From assembly GCA_028817435.1 (NCBI GenBank), contig JAPPPQ010000023.1, positions 246,836 to 310,835 on the forward strand: DNA of 64,000 bases. The letters are read 5' to 3'. The notes under the pieces were generated by a model that was not told the origin of the DNA, ran no database searches, and saw only the letters and a list, made by a program, of their open reading frames with translations. A program made the translations under genes and the position numbers. Below, one piece after another: positions 29,843-62,776 of this stretch (the first letter of the stretch is position 1; each line of letters opens with the position of its first letter). The DNA is from Deltaproteobacteria bacterium. Lineage in GTDB: Bacteria; Myxococcota_A; UBA9160; UBA6930.

Positions 29843-32320
29843 TCAGAAGCGGTAGCCCAGCTCGATGCCGTAGGTGCGCCTGGCGGCGGGGTGGATGAAG
29901 GAGCCGCCGAACTCGGGGGCCGGAATCACCTCTTCCAGGTATTCCTCGTTGAAGAGATTCCTGCCGAAAGCGTGGACGGACCAGTGGTCCATCTGGATTC
30001 CCAGCCGCATATCCACTGTGTTGTAGCTGTCGCGCTCGGTCTTCGAGTAGTCAGCCCCGCCAAAGTTGGAGACGGCTTCGTCGTCCTGCACGGTGTGGAA
30101 CCAGGTCGGGCCGATATACTGCCAATCCACGCGCCAGGAGAATTCCCCGCCGCCAATGGCGGGAAAGCTCTGGGGGATTCCGGTGGCGTATTCGAATCCC
30201 AGGTTGAGGGTGTAATCCGGCGTATAGGGAGATTCGTTTCCTTCGGTGCCCGGGCGGGAGGCGTTTCTGTCAATCTCGCTGTCCGTGATGTTGAAGCTCG
30301 TGTAGGCGGTGAAGCTTTCGGTGAAGTGGGCGCGCAGAGCCAGTTCGGCGCCCTGTATGGAGACCTCGTCAATGTTGCTCACCACGCGGAGCAGGCCGAA
30401 GCTGCCGACGAAGAATTCGAAGAACTGCATATCGTCCACACTGGTTTGATACAGGGCCGCCTCCATGGAGAGCCGCCGGTTGAAGAAGCTCGATTTGAAT
30501 CCGACTTCAATGGCGCTTGAGGTCTCCGCCTCGAAGCGATCCAGGACCTGCACATTGGCGCCCATGGGCCGGAATTGAGCCACGGTTGCGGCGCTTCCCT
30601 GGTTGTTGAAGCCTCCGCTCTTGAAGCCGATGCCCCAGCTTGCAAAAAGAGTCGTCTCATCGGACAGATCCCATGTGAGGCTCAGCTTGGGCTGCAACTC
30701 GTCGAAGGTCTCCTCCTGATCCGGAATCATGCTCCGAAATCGGAGAGCGGGGTTGATCGGCTGAATGTAGAGAGTCTGGGCATTCACCGGGACGAGATTC
30801 GAGACTTTTCGCTCCTCCCGGTCGTAGCGAAGAGCCAGGGACGCCTCGATGTTTTCACCCAGGTCGTAGGAGAGCTGTCCGAAAGCCGCCCAGACCTGCG
30901 TTTCGAACTCGTCGTGCACGAGTTGCTCGGTGGGGCTGCGCCCGCCCTGCGGGTTGAAGAGGCTGAGATCAATGCCCATGTCGCGGTCCACGCCCGTGGA
31001 GACTCCGACCTCCCGGTCGAGATCGAGGAAATAGAAGCCGACGAGCCAGCGCAGCGACTGGTCAGCGGGGGAGGCCAGCCGGGTTTCGAAGCTCAGATCC
31101 TCCTGGTTCCGCACCTGATACTGGTAGCCGTCGCAGGTGGTGGGCGAATAGGGGCCGAAGACCGAGGGGGGGAAGGTCGGCATTGCCCCGAGGAATTGCG
31201 GCGCGGGCAGAGTCACCCCCCCGGCATTGAGAGAGGCGGTGCTCGATATGCAGGTGGGCTCTGTGGCAAACAGCGAGAAGGAGGCGCTTGTGCCATCGGC
31301 GAGGAAATTCTGCTCGATGTCGCTGTAGAGAAGCCAGCCGGTCCACTCCGCCCAGCCCAGCTCCATGTCGAATTTGAGGGAGAACTCGAGCGCCTCTTGA
31401 TCGTTTTGCGGGTCAATGTTGGACTGAAACACGAATTGGTGATCGTTCACATCCTCGAAAAATTTTGGATTGACTCCGGTCAATCCCGGAACGGCGAACA
31501 CCGCGTTGAAAGTAATTGCCGCTGCATCCACTTCGCCGTAGCGCAGCTTCGCATCCACATGGAGGCGCTCGCTGGGCTCCCAGAGCAGGCGCGCATTCAG
31601 GTTGTAGTTCTCGAAGTCGTCGACATTGTCCCGGTCCAGGAAGCTGTTGTGAAAGAAACCGTCGGTGCTTCGCCAGTCGGCGCTGAGGCGGAAGTAGAGC
31701 GAATCCCGCACGAGCGGCCCGGAGAGGCTGGCTGCTGCATATTGGCTGTTGTGGTTTCCGGTGCTGGCTCGCAGCGTGGTTTCCCACTCGTTTGTGGGGC
31801 GCTTTGTGGTGATGATGATGGCGCCGGCAGCGGCGTTGCGGCCATAGAGCGCGCCCTGCGGGCCCTTCAGAATTTCGATCTGCGCAAGGTCGAGCAGATC
31901 CCTGTTGAAGGCCGATGGGTTGCTCAGCAAAATGCCGTCGGAGATGAAGGCGAAGCTGTTCTCGGCGTCCCGCGAGCCGTTGATGCCGCGGATATTCACC
32001 TGGGTGTCGCCGGCCTCCGCGGCGTCCACCAGGCTGACGCCGGGCGTGAGCCCGATGAAATCCTCAGGCCGTTGCACACCGGCTCGCTGGAGCGTCTCTG
32101 TCTGGAAGACGGTGACGCTGGCCGGGACATCCTGCAGGCGCTCCTCGCGCAATCGCGCGTGCACCACGATCTCCTCAATGGCCAGATCCGGTCCGCCATC
32201 GTTTCCCCCGGGGGGGGGGGGGGCGGTTTCCTGCGCCGCAACGGGCAGGGCAAGGGCCAGCGCGGTGATGAGAGCCCCAGCGGGGCGGACGAGACCTCGG
32301 AGCGTTTGGAGATTCGCCAT
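29843..32320 (-). CDS. TonB-dependent outer-membrane receptor with 5' poly-C tract
   Basis: An 825-residue receptor. The signal peptide is residues 1-29 (ALITALALALPVAA). A TonB-box-like region EEIVVHAR and plug domain follow (about 47-165: RPEDFIGLTPGVSLVDAAEAG, GPQGALYGRNAAAGAIIITTKRP), then a barrel ending RRTYGIELGYRF with terminal phenylalanine. It imports a ligand across the outer membrane using TonB energy. Codons 33-37 are written with 14 consecutive C (coding strand), giving Ala-Pro4; gain or loss of one C would shift the frame just after the signal peptide. AAAGGAGG precedes the ATG. Upstream lies a GTATACAA operator shared with the CoA-transferase promoter, suggesting its ligand is the substrate of the neighbouring hydantoinase-type pathway. 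Confidence 0.95.
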   Translation of the reverse strand: MANLQTLRGLVRPAGALITALALALPVAAQETAPPPPGGNDGGPDLAIEEIVVHARLREERLQDVPASVTVFQTETLQRAGVQRPEDFIGLTPGVSLVDAAEAGDTQVNIRGINGSRDAENSFAFISDGILLSNPSAFNRDLLDLAQIEILKGPQGALYGRNAAAGAIIITTKRPTNEWETTLRASTGNHNSQYAAASLSGPLVRDSLYFRLSADWRSTDGFFHNSFLDRDNVDDFENYNLNARLLWEPSERLHVDAKLRYGEVDAAAITFNAVFAVPGLTGVNPKFFEDVNDHQFVFQSNIDPQNDQEALEFSLKFDMELGWAEWTGWLLYSDIEQNFLADGTSASFSLFATEPTCISSTASLNAGGVTLPAPQFLGAMPTFPPSVFGPYSPTTCDGYQYQVRNQEDLSFETRLASPADQSLRWLVGFYFLDLDREVGVSTGVDRDMGIDLSLFNPQGGRSPTEQLVHDEFETQVWAAFGQLSYDLGENIEASLALRYDREERKVSNLVPVNAQTLYIQPINPALRFRSMIPDQEETFDELQPKLSLTWDLSDETTLFASWGIGFKSGGFNNQGSAATVAQFRPMGANVQVLDRFEAETSSAIEVGFKSSFFNRRLSMEAALYQTSVDDMQFFEFFVGSFGLLRVVSNIDEVSIQGAELALRAHFTESFTAYTSFNITDSEIDRNASRPGTEGNESPYTPDYTLNLGFEYATGIPQSFPAIGGGEFSWRVDWQYIGPTWFHTVQDDEAVSNFGGADYSKTERDSYNTVDMRLGIQMDHWSVHAFGRNLFNEEYLEEVIPAPEFGGSFIHPAARRTYGIELGYRF
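32210..32223 (-). repeat. Homopolymer C14 tract (coding strand) inside the TonB receptor gene
   Basis: Fourteen G on the plus strand, i.e. fourteen C in the receptor's coding strand, cover codons 33 to 37 right after the signal peptide and are followed by five G. The present length keeps the receptor in frame. Long mononucleotide runs near a 5' coding end are classic sites of slipped-strand mispairing. Confidence 0.9.
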
Positions 32321-32347
32321 GGGTGGCCTCCTTTCGAGTTTCCGATA

Positions 32348-60233: not shown

Positions 60234-60289
60234 TCATTCATTGGCACTTGGGCCCGGAGCGGGCCGCAGGTTTGCCCGGAGGAACTGCT

Positions 60290-62776
60290 ATGCGCGTCCA
60301 CTCTCTCGTCAATTTCTTCACCCCCCCCCCCCCCAGGGGGATTTCGCCCGTTTGGAGGCGGCTGCGCGGGCTTTTGCTGTGCGGTCTGCTGTTCGCCGCC
60401 GCTAGTCCGGCATTGACCGTGTGGGCGCAGCCGGCAGAGGATCCCGGCGCGCGGGCCGAGGAGGAGGGCGAAGAGGGTTCGGGCGGAGCTGCTTCCCGGC
60501 TTGCTCTCGAAGAGATCGTGGTGACCGGAACCGCCAGCGATGAGCGCACCAAATTCGATTCCAGCGTCGCCATCACGACGATGAACGCCGAGGACATTCG
60601 CACGCTGAATCCGCTTAGCACCGCAGACTTGCTGAGCGCCGTGCCCGGGCTGTGGGTGGAATCCTCCTCCGGCGAATCGAATGCCAATGTCTATGCGCGC
60701 GGCATTCCGCAGGATGGCGGTTATTTCTACCTGAATTTGCAAGAAGACGGGTCGCCGGTTTTCCCAGTCTCGTCGCTGTCTTTCTTCGGCGCCGATATGC
60801 TGATTCGCCTGGACGAATCGGTGGAGCGCATGGAGGCGGTGCGCGGCGGCACCGCGCCCATTTTTGCTTCCAGCGCCCCCGGCGGCATTGTGAATTTCGT
60901 GACCAAGCAGGGCACGCAGGAGCCGGAGGGGTTGATCAAGCTCACGCTCGGCGACTTTGGCCTGTTCCGCAATGATTTCTTTTACAGCGGGCCGCTCTCA
61001 GAGGACTGGCTCTTCAGTTTCGGGGGCTTTTACCGATCTTCCGACGGCATTCGGGATCCGCAGTTTCGCGCCGACCGCGGCGGGCAATTGCGCTTCTCTC
61101 TGACCCGCCTGCTGGAAGACGGCGAGCTTTCGATTTTTGGCCGCAAGCTGAACGACCGAAATCTGTTCCCCACCCCCCTGCCATTGCAAAACCCGCGGAA
61201 TCCGGAAGGCGTCCCCGGATTTGACGCCGGCACGGGAATTCTGCACAGCAACGATTTGCGCCGGGTTTCGCTGCCCCACGCCGCAGATGTGGGCCTGGAT
61301 GGAGCCGACTTGGCCGATGGCATCCGCTCGGAACTGGATACGCTGGGACTCCGGCTGGCGCTGGATCTGGATACCTGGACATCGCTCGAGAACATTTTTC
61401 GCTACACCGAAGCCGACATTACCTTCAACAGCATATTCACCGGAACCGCCGCGCAGCGTGGCAGTGACTACGCCGATGGCAGGGGCAATATCGTGTATGC
61501 TGGAAGCGGAGCGGCGTTTGATCACGACAATCTGGTGATTGATGCGGGCCTGTGGCTGGTTGCCAAGCAACTGCAGAGCTTCTCCAACGATTTGCGCATT
61601 AATTTTCAAACGCAGTCCAACGACTTCACCTTCGGATTTTACTACGCAGATTATTCGGTTGCCGACCAGTGGAGCCTCGGGAACAATTTTCTCATGGAGG
61701 CGAAGAACAATGCGCAGCGGCTCCGGTTGGCTGGTGTGACCAGCCCGGAGGGCCTCACACGGACTTCCACCTTCCACCTGGATGCCAGCCACCAGGGGAC
61801 CTCAACGGTGCTGTATGCATCGGACGAATGGAATTTGAGCGAAGATCTTCGCTTCGATTTCGGGCTGCGCTGGCAACGGGACACCATCGATTCTTCCATC
61901 AGCGAGGGGGCAACCGTTGATTTCGACGGAGATCCCACAACCCCGTGGGACAACGAAACTGCGCAGACGGGAAATTCCTACCGGACAGTGGACCGGGATT
62001 TTGACGACCTGGCCTGGTCTGTTGGCTTCAACTACAACTTTACATACAACCAGGGAATCTTCGGCCACTGGACCGATTCCTTCCGCATTTCCAACTTTGA
62101 CGATCTGCGCGACGGCAGGGATGTGGTGGAGAGCATTACTCAGGTTGAGCTGGGCTACAAGCTTTCTACTGATTATCTGGCGATTTTTGCGACGCTTTTT
62201 CGCAGCGAATTTGACAATGTGTATTTCAATGATGTTCTGGCGGATGGCTCGATGGCGCGCCGAACCGCCGGCACTGAGAATATTGGCATTGAGCTTGAAG
62301 GAGTTTGGACTCCCCTCGAAAGCCTGGAGGTGGTGGCCAGCATGACCCTGCAACAGCCCGAATACACCTCCTTTACCATCCGCACGGCAGACAATCCCGA
62401 TACTGCCAACGATGAAACCGCCACCTCCAGCTTCACCGGCAACACCGTCAAGCGGCTGCCGGAGCTGCTTTTCCGAAGCACCATCACTTACCGCTTCGGA
62501 GGGCGCGCGCGAATCTACGGGAGCTTTTCGCATGTTGGAAAGCGCTACTCCGATGACGAAAATGTGGTCGAGCTCCCCGCATACAACAAATTCGACATCG
62601 GATTCATCTACAACCACCGGGAGAGCTTGAGTTTCCAGGTGCAAGTGAACAACTTGACCGATGAAGTGGGTCTCACCGAGGGCAACCCGCGGGTGACCGG
62701 ACCCACCGGGGTTTACTACAACGCGCGCCCGATTTTTGGCAGGTCGCTGCGGGCTTCGGTGACCTACAACTTCTGA
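60290..62776 (+). CDS. TonB-dependent outer-membrane receptor with 5' poly-C tract
   Basis: An 828-residue receptor. The signal peptide is unusual: the hydrophobic core (LRGLLLCGLLFAAASPALTVWA) begins only near residue 25, and residues 11-15 (Thr-Pro4) are encoded by a C14 run at 60321-60334. A TonB-box-like EEIVVTGTA, plug domain (DLLSAVPGLWVESSSGE, VRGGTAPIFASSAPGGIVNFVTK) and barrel follow, ending SLRASVTYNF with terminal phenylalanine. The ATG at 60290 has CGGAGGAAC upstream; a TTG at 60248 is disfavoured. Slippage in the tract would abolish the signal peptide frame. Neighbours are a sodium symporter (divergent) and a hydroxysteroid-dehydrogenase-like SDR (convergent), hinting at a steroid-like ligand. 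Confidence 0.95.
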   Translation: MRVHSLVNFFTPPPPRGISPVWRRLRGLLLCGLLFAAASPALTVWAQPAEDPGARAEEEGEEGSGGAASRLALEEIVVTGTASDERTKFDSSVAITTMNAEDIRTLNPLSTADLLSAVPGLWVESSSGESNANVYARGIPQDGGYFYLNLQEDGSPVFPVSSLSFFGADMLIRLDESVERMEAVRGGTAPIFASSAPGGIVNFVTKQGTQEPEGLIKLTLGDFGLFRNDFFYSGPLSEDWLFSFGGFYRSSDGIRDPQFRADRGGQLRFSLTRLLEDGELSIFGRKLNDRNLFPTPLPLQNPRNPEGVPGFDAGTGILHSNDLRRVSLPHAADVGLDGADLADGIRSELDTLGLRLALDLDTWTSLENIFRYTEADITFNSIFTGTAAQRGSDYADGRGNIVYAGSGAAFDHDNLVIDAGLWLVAKQLQSFSNDLRINFQTQSNDFTFGFYYADYSVADQWSLGNNFLMEAKNNAQRLRLAGVTSPEGLTRTSTFHLDASHQGTSTVLYASDEWNLSEDLRFDFGLRWQRDTIDSSISEGATVDFDGDPTTPWDNETAQTGNSYRTVDRDFDDLAWSVGFNYNFTYNQGIFGHWTDSFRISNFDDLRDGRDVVESITQVELGYKLSTDYLAIFATLFRSEFDNVYFNDVLADGSMARRTAGTENIGIELEGVWTPLESLEVVASMTLQQPEYTSFTIRTADNPDTANDETATSSFTGNTVKRLPELLFRSTITYRFGGRARIYGSFSHVGKRYSDDENVVELPAYNKFDIGFIYNHRESLSFQVQVNNLTDEVGLTEGNPRVTGPTGVYYNARPIFGRSLRASVTYNF
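60321..60334 (+). repeat. Homopolymer C14 tract inside the second TonB receptor gene
   Basis: Fourteen consecutive C cover codons 11 to 15, before the signal-peptide core, and are followed by AGGGGG. The receptor is in frame at this length. It is the same length and same base as the tract in the other receptor gene 28 kb away, though the flanking sequences differ. Confidence 0.9.

Follow-up and report, generated by a model that had tools for sequence, protein, structure and literature searches.

Two TonB-dependent receptor genes with C14 tracts

The DNA analysed here is a 64,000-nucleotide stretch, called the window below, of contig JAPPPQ010000023.1 from the deltaproteobacterial assembly GCA_028817435.1 (hereafter G000). 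Near its right end lies a gene for a TonB-dependent receptor (TBDR) that carries a run of fourteen cytosines (C14) close to its 5' end. The run starts 31 nucleotides into the gene and encodes T-PPPP-R, residues 11-16 of the product. A second C14 tract was found in the only other Plug-domain gene of the window. The features of both loci are as follows.

60278..60282, plus strand: Shine-Dalgarno sequence GGAGG serving the ATG at 60290
60290..62776, plus strand: TBDR of 828 amino acids with Plug and beta-barrel, in frame (ON) in the assembly
60321..60334, plus strand: C14 tract whose PPPP forms residues 12-15 of the TBDR, 5' of the signal-peptide core (run scan and translation)
60371..60403, plus strand: hydrophobic core of the signal peptide, 3' of the C14 tract (translation)
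60314..60344, minus strand: tract with shared flanks, AAATCCCCCT-G14-TGAAGAA, a copy of the motif described below
29843..32320, minus strand: second TBDR, 825 amino acids with Plug and beta-barrel, in frame (ON) in the assembly
32327..32332, minus strand: Shine-Dalgarno sequence AGGAGG serving the ATG at 32320
32210..32223, minus strand: C14 tract (G14 on the plus strand), PPPP right after the signal peptide of the second TBDR
32202..32230, plus strand: tract with shared flanks, TTTCCCCC-G14-CGGTTTC, a copy of the same motif

Both products matched the Pfam families TonB_dep_Rec_b-barrel (PF00593) and Plug (PF07715) above the cut-off, and in their translations a signal peptide and a TonB box of the EEIVV type could be read before the plug. 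Searches of 40 related genomes gave no relative at E <= 1e-60 for either receptor, and no 5' tract was present in the P0002 homologues among 80 named records (47-57% identity). In simulations that preserved composition, a G/C run longer than 10 nucleotides appeared in 0 of 40 windows.

An earlier note on this DNA, made from the sequence alone, had placed the C14 run at the 5' end of the TBDR gene, and the position is exact. It had described the two receptors as the only ones in the window and as clearly different in sequence, which agrees with our finding of two Plug genes sharing ~25% identity over ~190 amino acids. Its remark that no other long run occurs in the 64 kb also held, since all remaining homopolymers are at most 9 nucleotides long. 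As it had anticipated, a slip ahead of the signal core would abolish the export signal: a change of one base in the receptor at 60290..62776 gives a product of 38 or 41 amino acids without the core. The corresponding products for the receptor at 29843..32320 are of 48 or 107 amino acids. The note had further stressed that the two tracts share their length, their four prolines and their frame. All three observations stand, but the equal length is partly a coincidence, the receptor tracts of the genome being of 13, 14 or 16 nucleotides.

Long G/C runs at TBDR genes across the genome

The G000 assembly comprises 2.8 Mb in 67 contigs, is 92% complete and has 66% GC. It contains 51 G/C runs of at least 10 nucleotides, 35 of them of at least 13, and 26 plug-domain receptors. 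Twelve of these 26 TBDRs carry a C or G run of 13-16 nucleotides between the start codon and the plug. Taking the 300 nucleotides before the plug domain as the region tested, 12 of the 35 runs of at least 13 fell within 0.28% of the genome, where 0.098 would be expected (binomial p ~1.7e-22). Such runs are thus not randomly spread over gene classes, which supports at the sequence level the genome-wide repertoire of slippable receptors that the earlier note had proposed. The 500 nucleotides just downstream in the same genes had no run longer than 7. A run of at least 9 was found in the 5' region of 13 of 26 TBDRs in G000 versus 1 of 30 in G001, a relative with a larger genome.

The receptors are diverse, with at least 40% identity in two pairs only. 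One member of a pair with 63% identity, the paralogue L032, has no run, so the receptor runs were not inherited from a single tracted ancestor gene. In a phylum-wide search, a pattern of G11 or longer within 61 nucleotides of a TonB-box motif was met in 1 of 379 genomes, G000 alone, with a narrow pattern that passes over tracts of lesser length or other spacing, the ones in the related genome G005 among them.

Slip consequences and reading frames of the receptors

Eleven of the 12 tracted TBDRs have an ATG, preceded by a Shine-Dalgarno sequence, in the frame of the run and are hence ON. The twelfth (L038/L090, G16) has its start out of frame with the receptor body and is OFF. The addition or removal of one base would truncate all 12 receptors, to 38-224 codons in those with a clear start.

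Tracts at other envelope and restriction-modification genes

The earlier note had seen in these tracts a design specific to receptors, a view that proved too narrow. When the 35 runs of at least 13 nucleotides were placed, four lay at contig ends or gaps and are likely artefacts, and the 31 others were distributed over envelope genes (27), restriction-modification genes (2) and unassigned positions (2). Besides the 12 at TBDRs, these 31 include 10 at the 5' ends of genes for giant secreted proteins of the Calx-beta type, one at an inverse autotransporter, one upstream of a MipA-family gene, one upstream of a BamD-like outer-membrane gene, and those at a NodU-like carbamoyltransferase and a MurL-like enzyme, so that envelope-modifying enzymes are represented as well. 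The Calx-beta assignment of one L058 gene, L074 and L094 was made from neighbouring matches in the same frames.

Artefact-like runs of 18-64 C or G comprise those at the contig ends of C12 and C39, at the start of C47 and at ~44.2-44.4 kb of C55 in G000, and most long runs in the relatives G001, G003 and G011. They may be poly-G sequencing artefacts or assembly breaks at long tracts, so that the true number of tracts may exceed our count.

Ten non-receptor genes have the run inside their inferred reading frame, two in frame and eight out of frame. The contrast with the receptors (11 ON and 1 OFF versus 2 ON and 8 OFF) gave p = 0.0015 in a Fisher test, a value that depends on the inferred start codons. 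The carbamoyltransferase (L067), a type ISP restriction-methylase (L081) and the MurL-like gene (L068) each consist of two intact halves in different frames with the junction at the tract, and in L067 and L081 each half is recognised by its own domain. The inverse autotransporter (L080) and the Calx-beta leaders L057, L074, L082 and L091 are out of frame too. The two restriction-modification loci are the following.

L079 2613-4286, minus strand: fusion of a DNA methylase (N6/N4) and an Mrr nuclease; its G14 tract is in frame and adjoins the DPPF motif
L081 2809-6020, plus strand: type ISP restriction-methylase, out of frame at the G14 tract that divides it

Judging from their tracts, both are candidate phase-variable restriction-modification genes.

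Three Calx-beta loci on the minus strand (L057, L082 and L091) have nearly the same leader, MVQL[SA][AT]QRE[TI]F-PPPPP, preceded by a strong Shine-Dalgarno sequence and placed before different Calx-beta genes. The leaders are 82-93% identical over 45 nucleotides, and their C-tracts measure 16, 17 and 19, all out of frame. Such differences between near-identical leaders suggest length instability, with the qualification that runs this long assemble poorly. The genome has ~20 giant open frames of the Calx-beta type, of up to ~7,200 codons and with 114 domain matches, an unusual load for 2.8 Mb. They are found at L057, L058, L061, L063, L064, L074, L082, L084 and L091, on contigs C2, C5, C7, C9, C11, C22, C24, C47 and others, and about half of them have a 5' G/C tract.

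Frameshifted receptors in a related genus

We compared these loci with those of G005, a 2.2-Mb genome of another genus in the same family with 16 plug genes. Runs of 9-13 nucleotides occupy the corresponding position in four internal plug genes of G005, and a run at a contig start was found in a fifth, against an expectation of 0.27 runs of at least 9. In L219 (C10), L222 (C13) and L232 (G9) a start codon with a Shine-Dalgarno sequence and a signal peptide occupy one frame and the intact receptor body occupies another, the junction lying at the run, while the tracted receptor L221 is in frame. As read from the sequence, the three frameshifted genes appear to be the closest approach to observed OFF alleles of receptors. 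Other long runs of G005 include those in a subtilase with a lipoprotein-like leader and in a secreted protein, both out of frame. The long runs of G001, G003 and G011, most of which lie at contig ends, were treated as artefacts and left out.

The two genomes with tracted receptors, G000 and G005, are among the small ones of the family, whose other members mostly have 4.5-6.4 Mb. Genes with a MutS_V domain number one in each of the two and two or three in most of the larger relatives.

A shared flanking motif and alternative explanations

Aligned in the G orientation, the tracts showed the consensus TTYCCCC(C/G)C-G13-19-TGGnAnR, with information from -8 to +7 only. At least four C in the six preceding bases were found at 26 of 28 independent runs versus ~10% of the 5-8-nucleotide G-runs in the same DNA (p ~3e-24). 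The motif is identical across receptors, Calx-beta genes, restriction-modification genes and upstream regions, and it occurs in both orientations relative to the gene. It gave no match in IMG/VR, and folding of the tract with its flanks as DNA produced small hairpins no better than those of shuffled sequences. Because the flanks are shared, the runs represent one dispersed DNA motif and not independent products of slippage. The two tracts of the window, which the earlier note had counted as independent occurrences, are therefore better described as copies or convergent versions of this motif. It may have been copied between genes, may favour slippage or may bind something. We tentatively suggest, as a possibility with somewhat less than even odds, that a dispersed module of 28-30 bp (C-rich arm, G13-19, TGG), present in ~30 loci of one lineage, is a portable phase-variation cassette that would switch about half of the TonB receptors together with giant surface proteins and restriction-modification genes, its C-rich arm tuning slippage or spread.

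These flanks raise the alternative that the tracts are a dispersed DNA motif with another primary role, as a protein-binding, recombination or G-quadruplex site, and that frame switching is a by-product. The restriction of the common flanks to the long tracts agrees with such a role, as do the two orientations and the position of some tracts 5' of genes outside any reading frame (L058, L071 and L089). However, the tracts are placed at the 5' ends of genes for exported proteins, the frame runs unbroken through 11 of the 12 receptor tracts, and in several genes the break falls exactly at the tract; moreover, a neutral site within signal-peptide codons would be costly. We therefore regard this explanation as improbable, although it and phase variation are not mutually exclusive.

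Selection at the protein level, for a useful Pro or Gly linker after the signal peptide, would account for the fact that all 12 runs are open in the receptor frame and that in many the residues immediately ahead of the TonB box are PPGGGGVEE. Yet the tract is read as Gly (GGG) in nine receptors and as Pro in three. GGG makes up 17% of the Gly codons in the genome, and the four to five consecutive GGG of the G-tract receptors are very unlikely at that usage. The GGG repeats thus point to selection of the runs at the DNA level, and the nine Gly tracts with their GGG codons beside the three Pro tracts argue that the runs were not kept for their amino acids. Furthermore, three tracts precede the signal core, where a linker is needless, the same DNA motif occurs elsewhere out of frame or in noncoding DNA, and the paralogue L032 does without a tract. 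The linker explanation is very unlikely.

Neutral expansion of the runs, whether it came from the high GC of the genome or from a lack of mismatch repair, seems to us equally far-fetched. The 66% GC of G000 would favour it, and the 16 runs of 10-12 nucleotides are no more abundant than composition predicts; none of these 16 lies before a TBDR plug and one is inside a receptor barrel. Runs of at least 13 nonetheless go far beyond expectation (a zero-order model at the GC of G000 predicts ~0.7 runs of at least 14 genome-wide), they are concentrated at one gene class and share their flanks, and a relative of similar GC has no such runs in its TBDRs. Loss of mismatch repair was rejected as its cause, mutS and mutL being present.

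Finally, a sequencing or assembly artefact (two-colour poly-G calls or chimeric joins through poly-G) would fit the four runs at contig ends or gaps in G000 and most runs in the relatives, but it is scarcely credible at the receptor tracts. There a single gene spans the tract, with start and signal peptide on its upstream side and TonB box and plug on its downstream side, which makes the assembly error allowed for in the earlier note unlikely, and the contigs continue for kilobases in both directions, even if exact lengths may be off by one.

Phase variation as the preferred reading

We consider the C14 run at 60321..60334 to be a contingency tract, that is, a phase-variation tract at which slippage switches the cell surface, and we put the probability of this reading at roughly 0.85. 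Strand slippage at the poly-C/G run would shift the tract length by single bases. One length in three would join start codon and signal peptide to the receptor in a single frame, and the remaining lengths would yield a short peptide that is not exported. The run would be one of ~30 tracts in a genome-wide set of switches that takes in 12 of 26 TBDRs, ~10 giant Calx-beta repeat proteins, other envelope genes and two restriction-modification genes. The tracts have the properties of contingency loci: lengths of 13-16 nucleotides beyond chance, placement where a slip has consequences, and enrichment at surface and restriction-modification genes. Under this reading, cells would differ in tract length through frequent and reversible changes, and selection would favour diversification of the surface. 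The benefit may lie with phage, host or nutrients, the first two having been put forward in the earlier note.

Several points weigh against it. The 11:1 excess of ON receptors is above the third expected under neutral drift and above the values for meningococcal hmbR (59%) and hpuA (65%) (PMC3786947), which may mean that switches are infrequent or that the ON state is favoured. The mismatch repair genes mutS and mutL are present, and the assembled lengths of G/C runs are uncertain, especially above 15. ON and OFF alleles are both present, across loci and genera rather than at a single locus in one population.

The pattern looks like simple-sequence-repeat phase variation on an unusual scale in TBDRs, in a lineage not known to be pathogenic. 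Switching of this kind is known mostly from pathogens, and we know of no single genome with more switchable TonB receptors than G000 would have. Our search of the open-licence literature found no report of a comparable repertoire.

The nearest precedent is in Neisseria meningitidis, where an in-frame poly-G tract in hmbR and hpuA switches haemoglobin receptors, the TonB-dependent systems HmbR and HpuAB (PMC3786947). These are two systems of a human pathogen, whereas in G000 the run lies in or adjoining the signal peptide of 12 of 26 receptors of an uncultured lineage, with shared flanks. The Campylobacter phasome likewise has dozens of poly-G/C tracts, mostly within reading frames and many in surface genes, and tracts of at least 8 were shown to mediate switches in C. 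jejuni (PMC6321876). Its tracts peak at 9-10 nucleotides and are rarely of 13-15; those of G000 are typically of 13-16, in a genome of 66% GC, with TBDRs and giant Calx-beta proteins dominant, and the word "TonB" does not occur in the text of the phasome paper (PMC6321876). The G14 tracts of L079 (in frame) and L081 (out of frame) recall phase-variable DNA methyltransferases (phasevarions). Classic phasevarions are type III mod genes, unlike these two candidates, which are recognised here by their tracts. Homopolymers that favour the 5' ends of genes, with early truncation, were described by Orsi et al. 2010 (PMC2831843), with poly-A/T overrepresented and tracts of at most 7 bases; those of G000 are long poly-G/C runs at particular gene classes. 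Two papers on Bacteroides describe random ON/OFF diversification of the surface that is tied to coexistence with phage (PMC8375218, PMC12118408). As presented there, DNA segments are inverted, whereas we read the G000 tracts as sites of homopolymer slippage. What differs in G000 from these systems is the share of TonB receptors concerned, the length of 13-16 nucleotides, the shared flanks and a host far from the usual pathogens.

G000 is a candidate counter-example, from an uncultured lineage, to the association of such switching with pathogens, and its shared flanks hint that switch tracts can be made or spread as a module. If the reading is correct, OFF alleles would be wrongly annotated as pseudogenes, and nutrient uptake and the recognition of phage or host would be diversified by chance within clonal populations.
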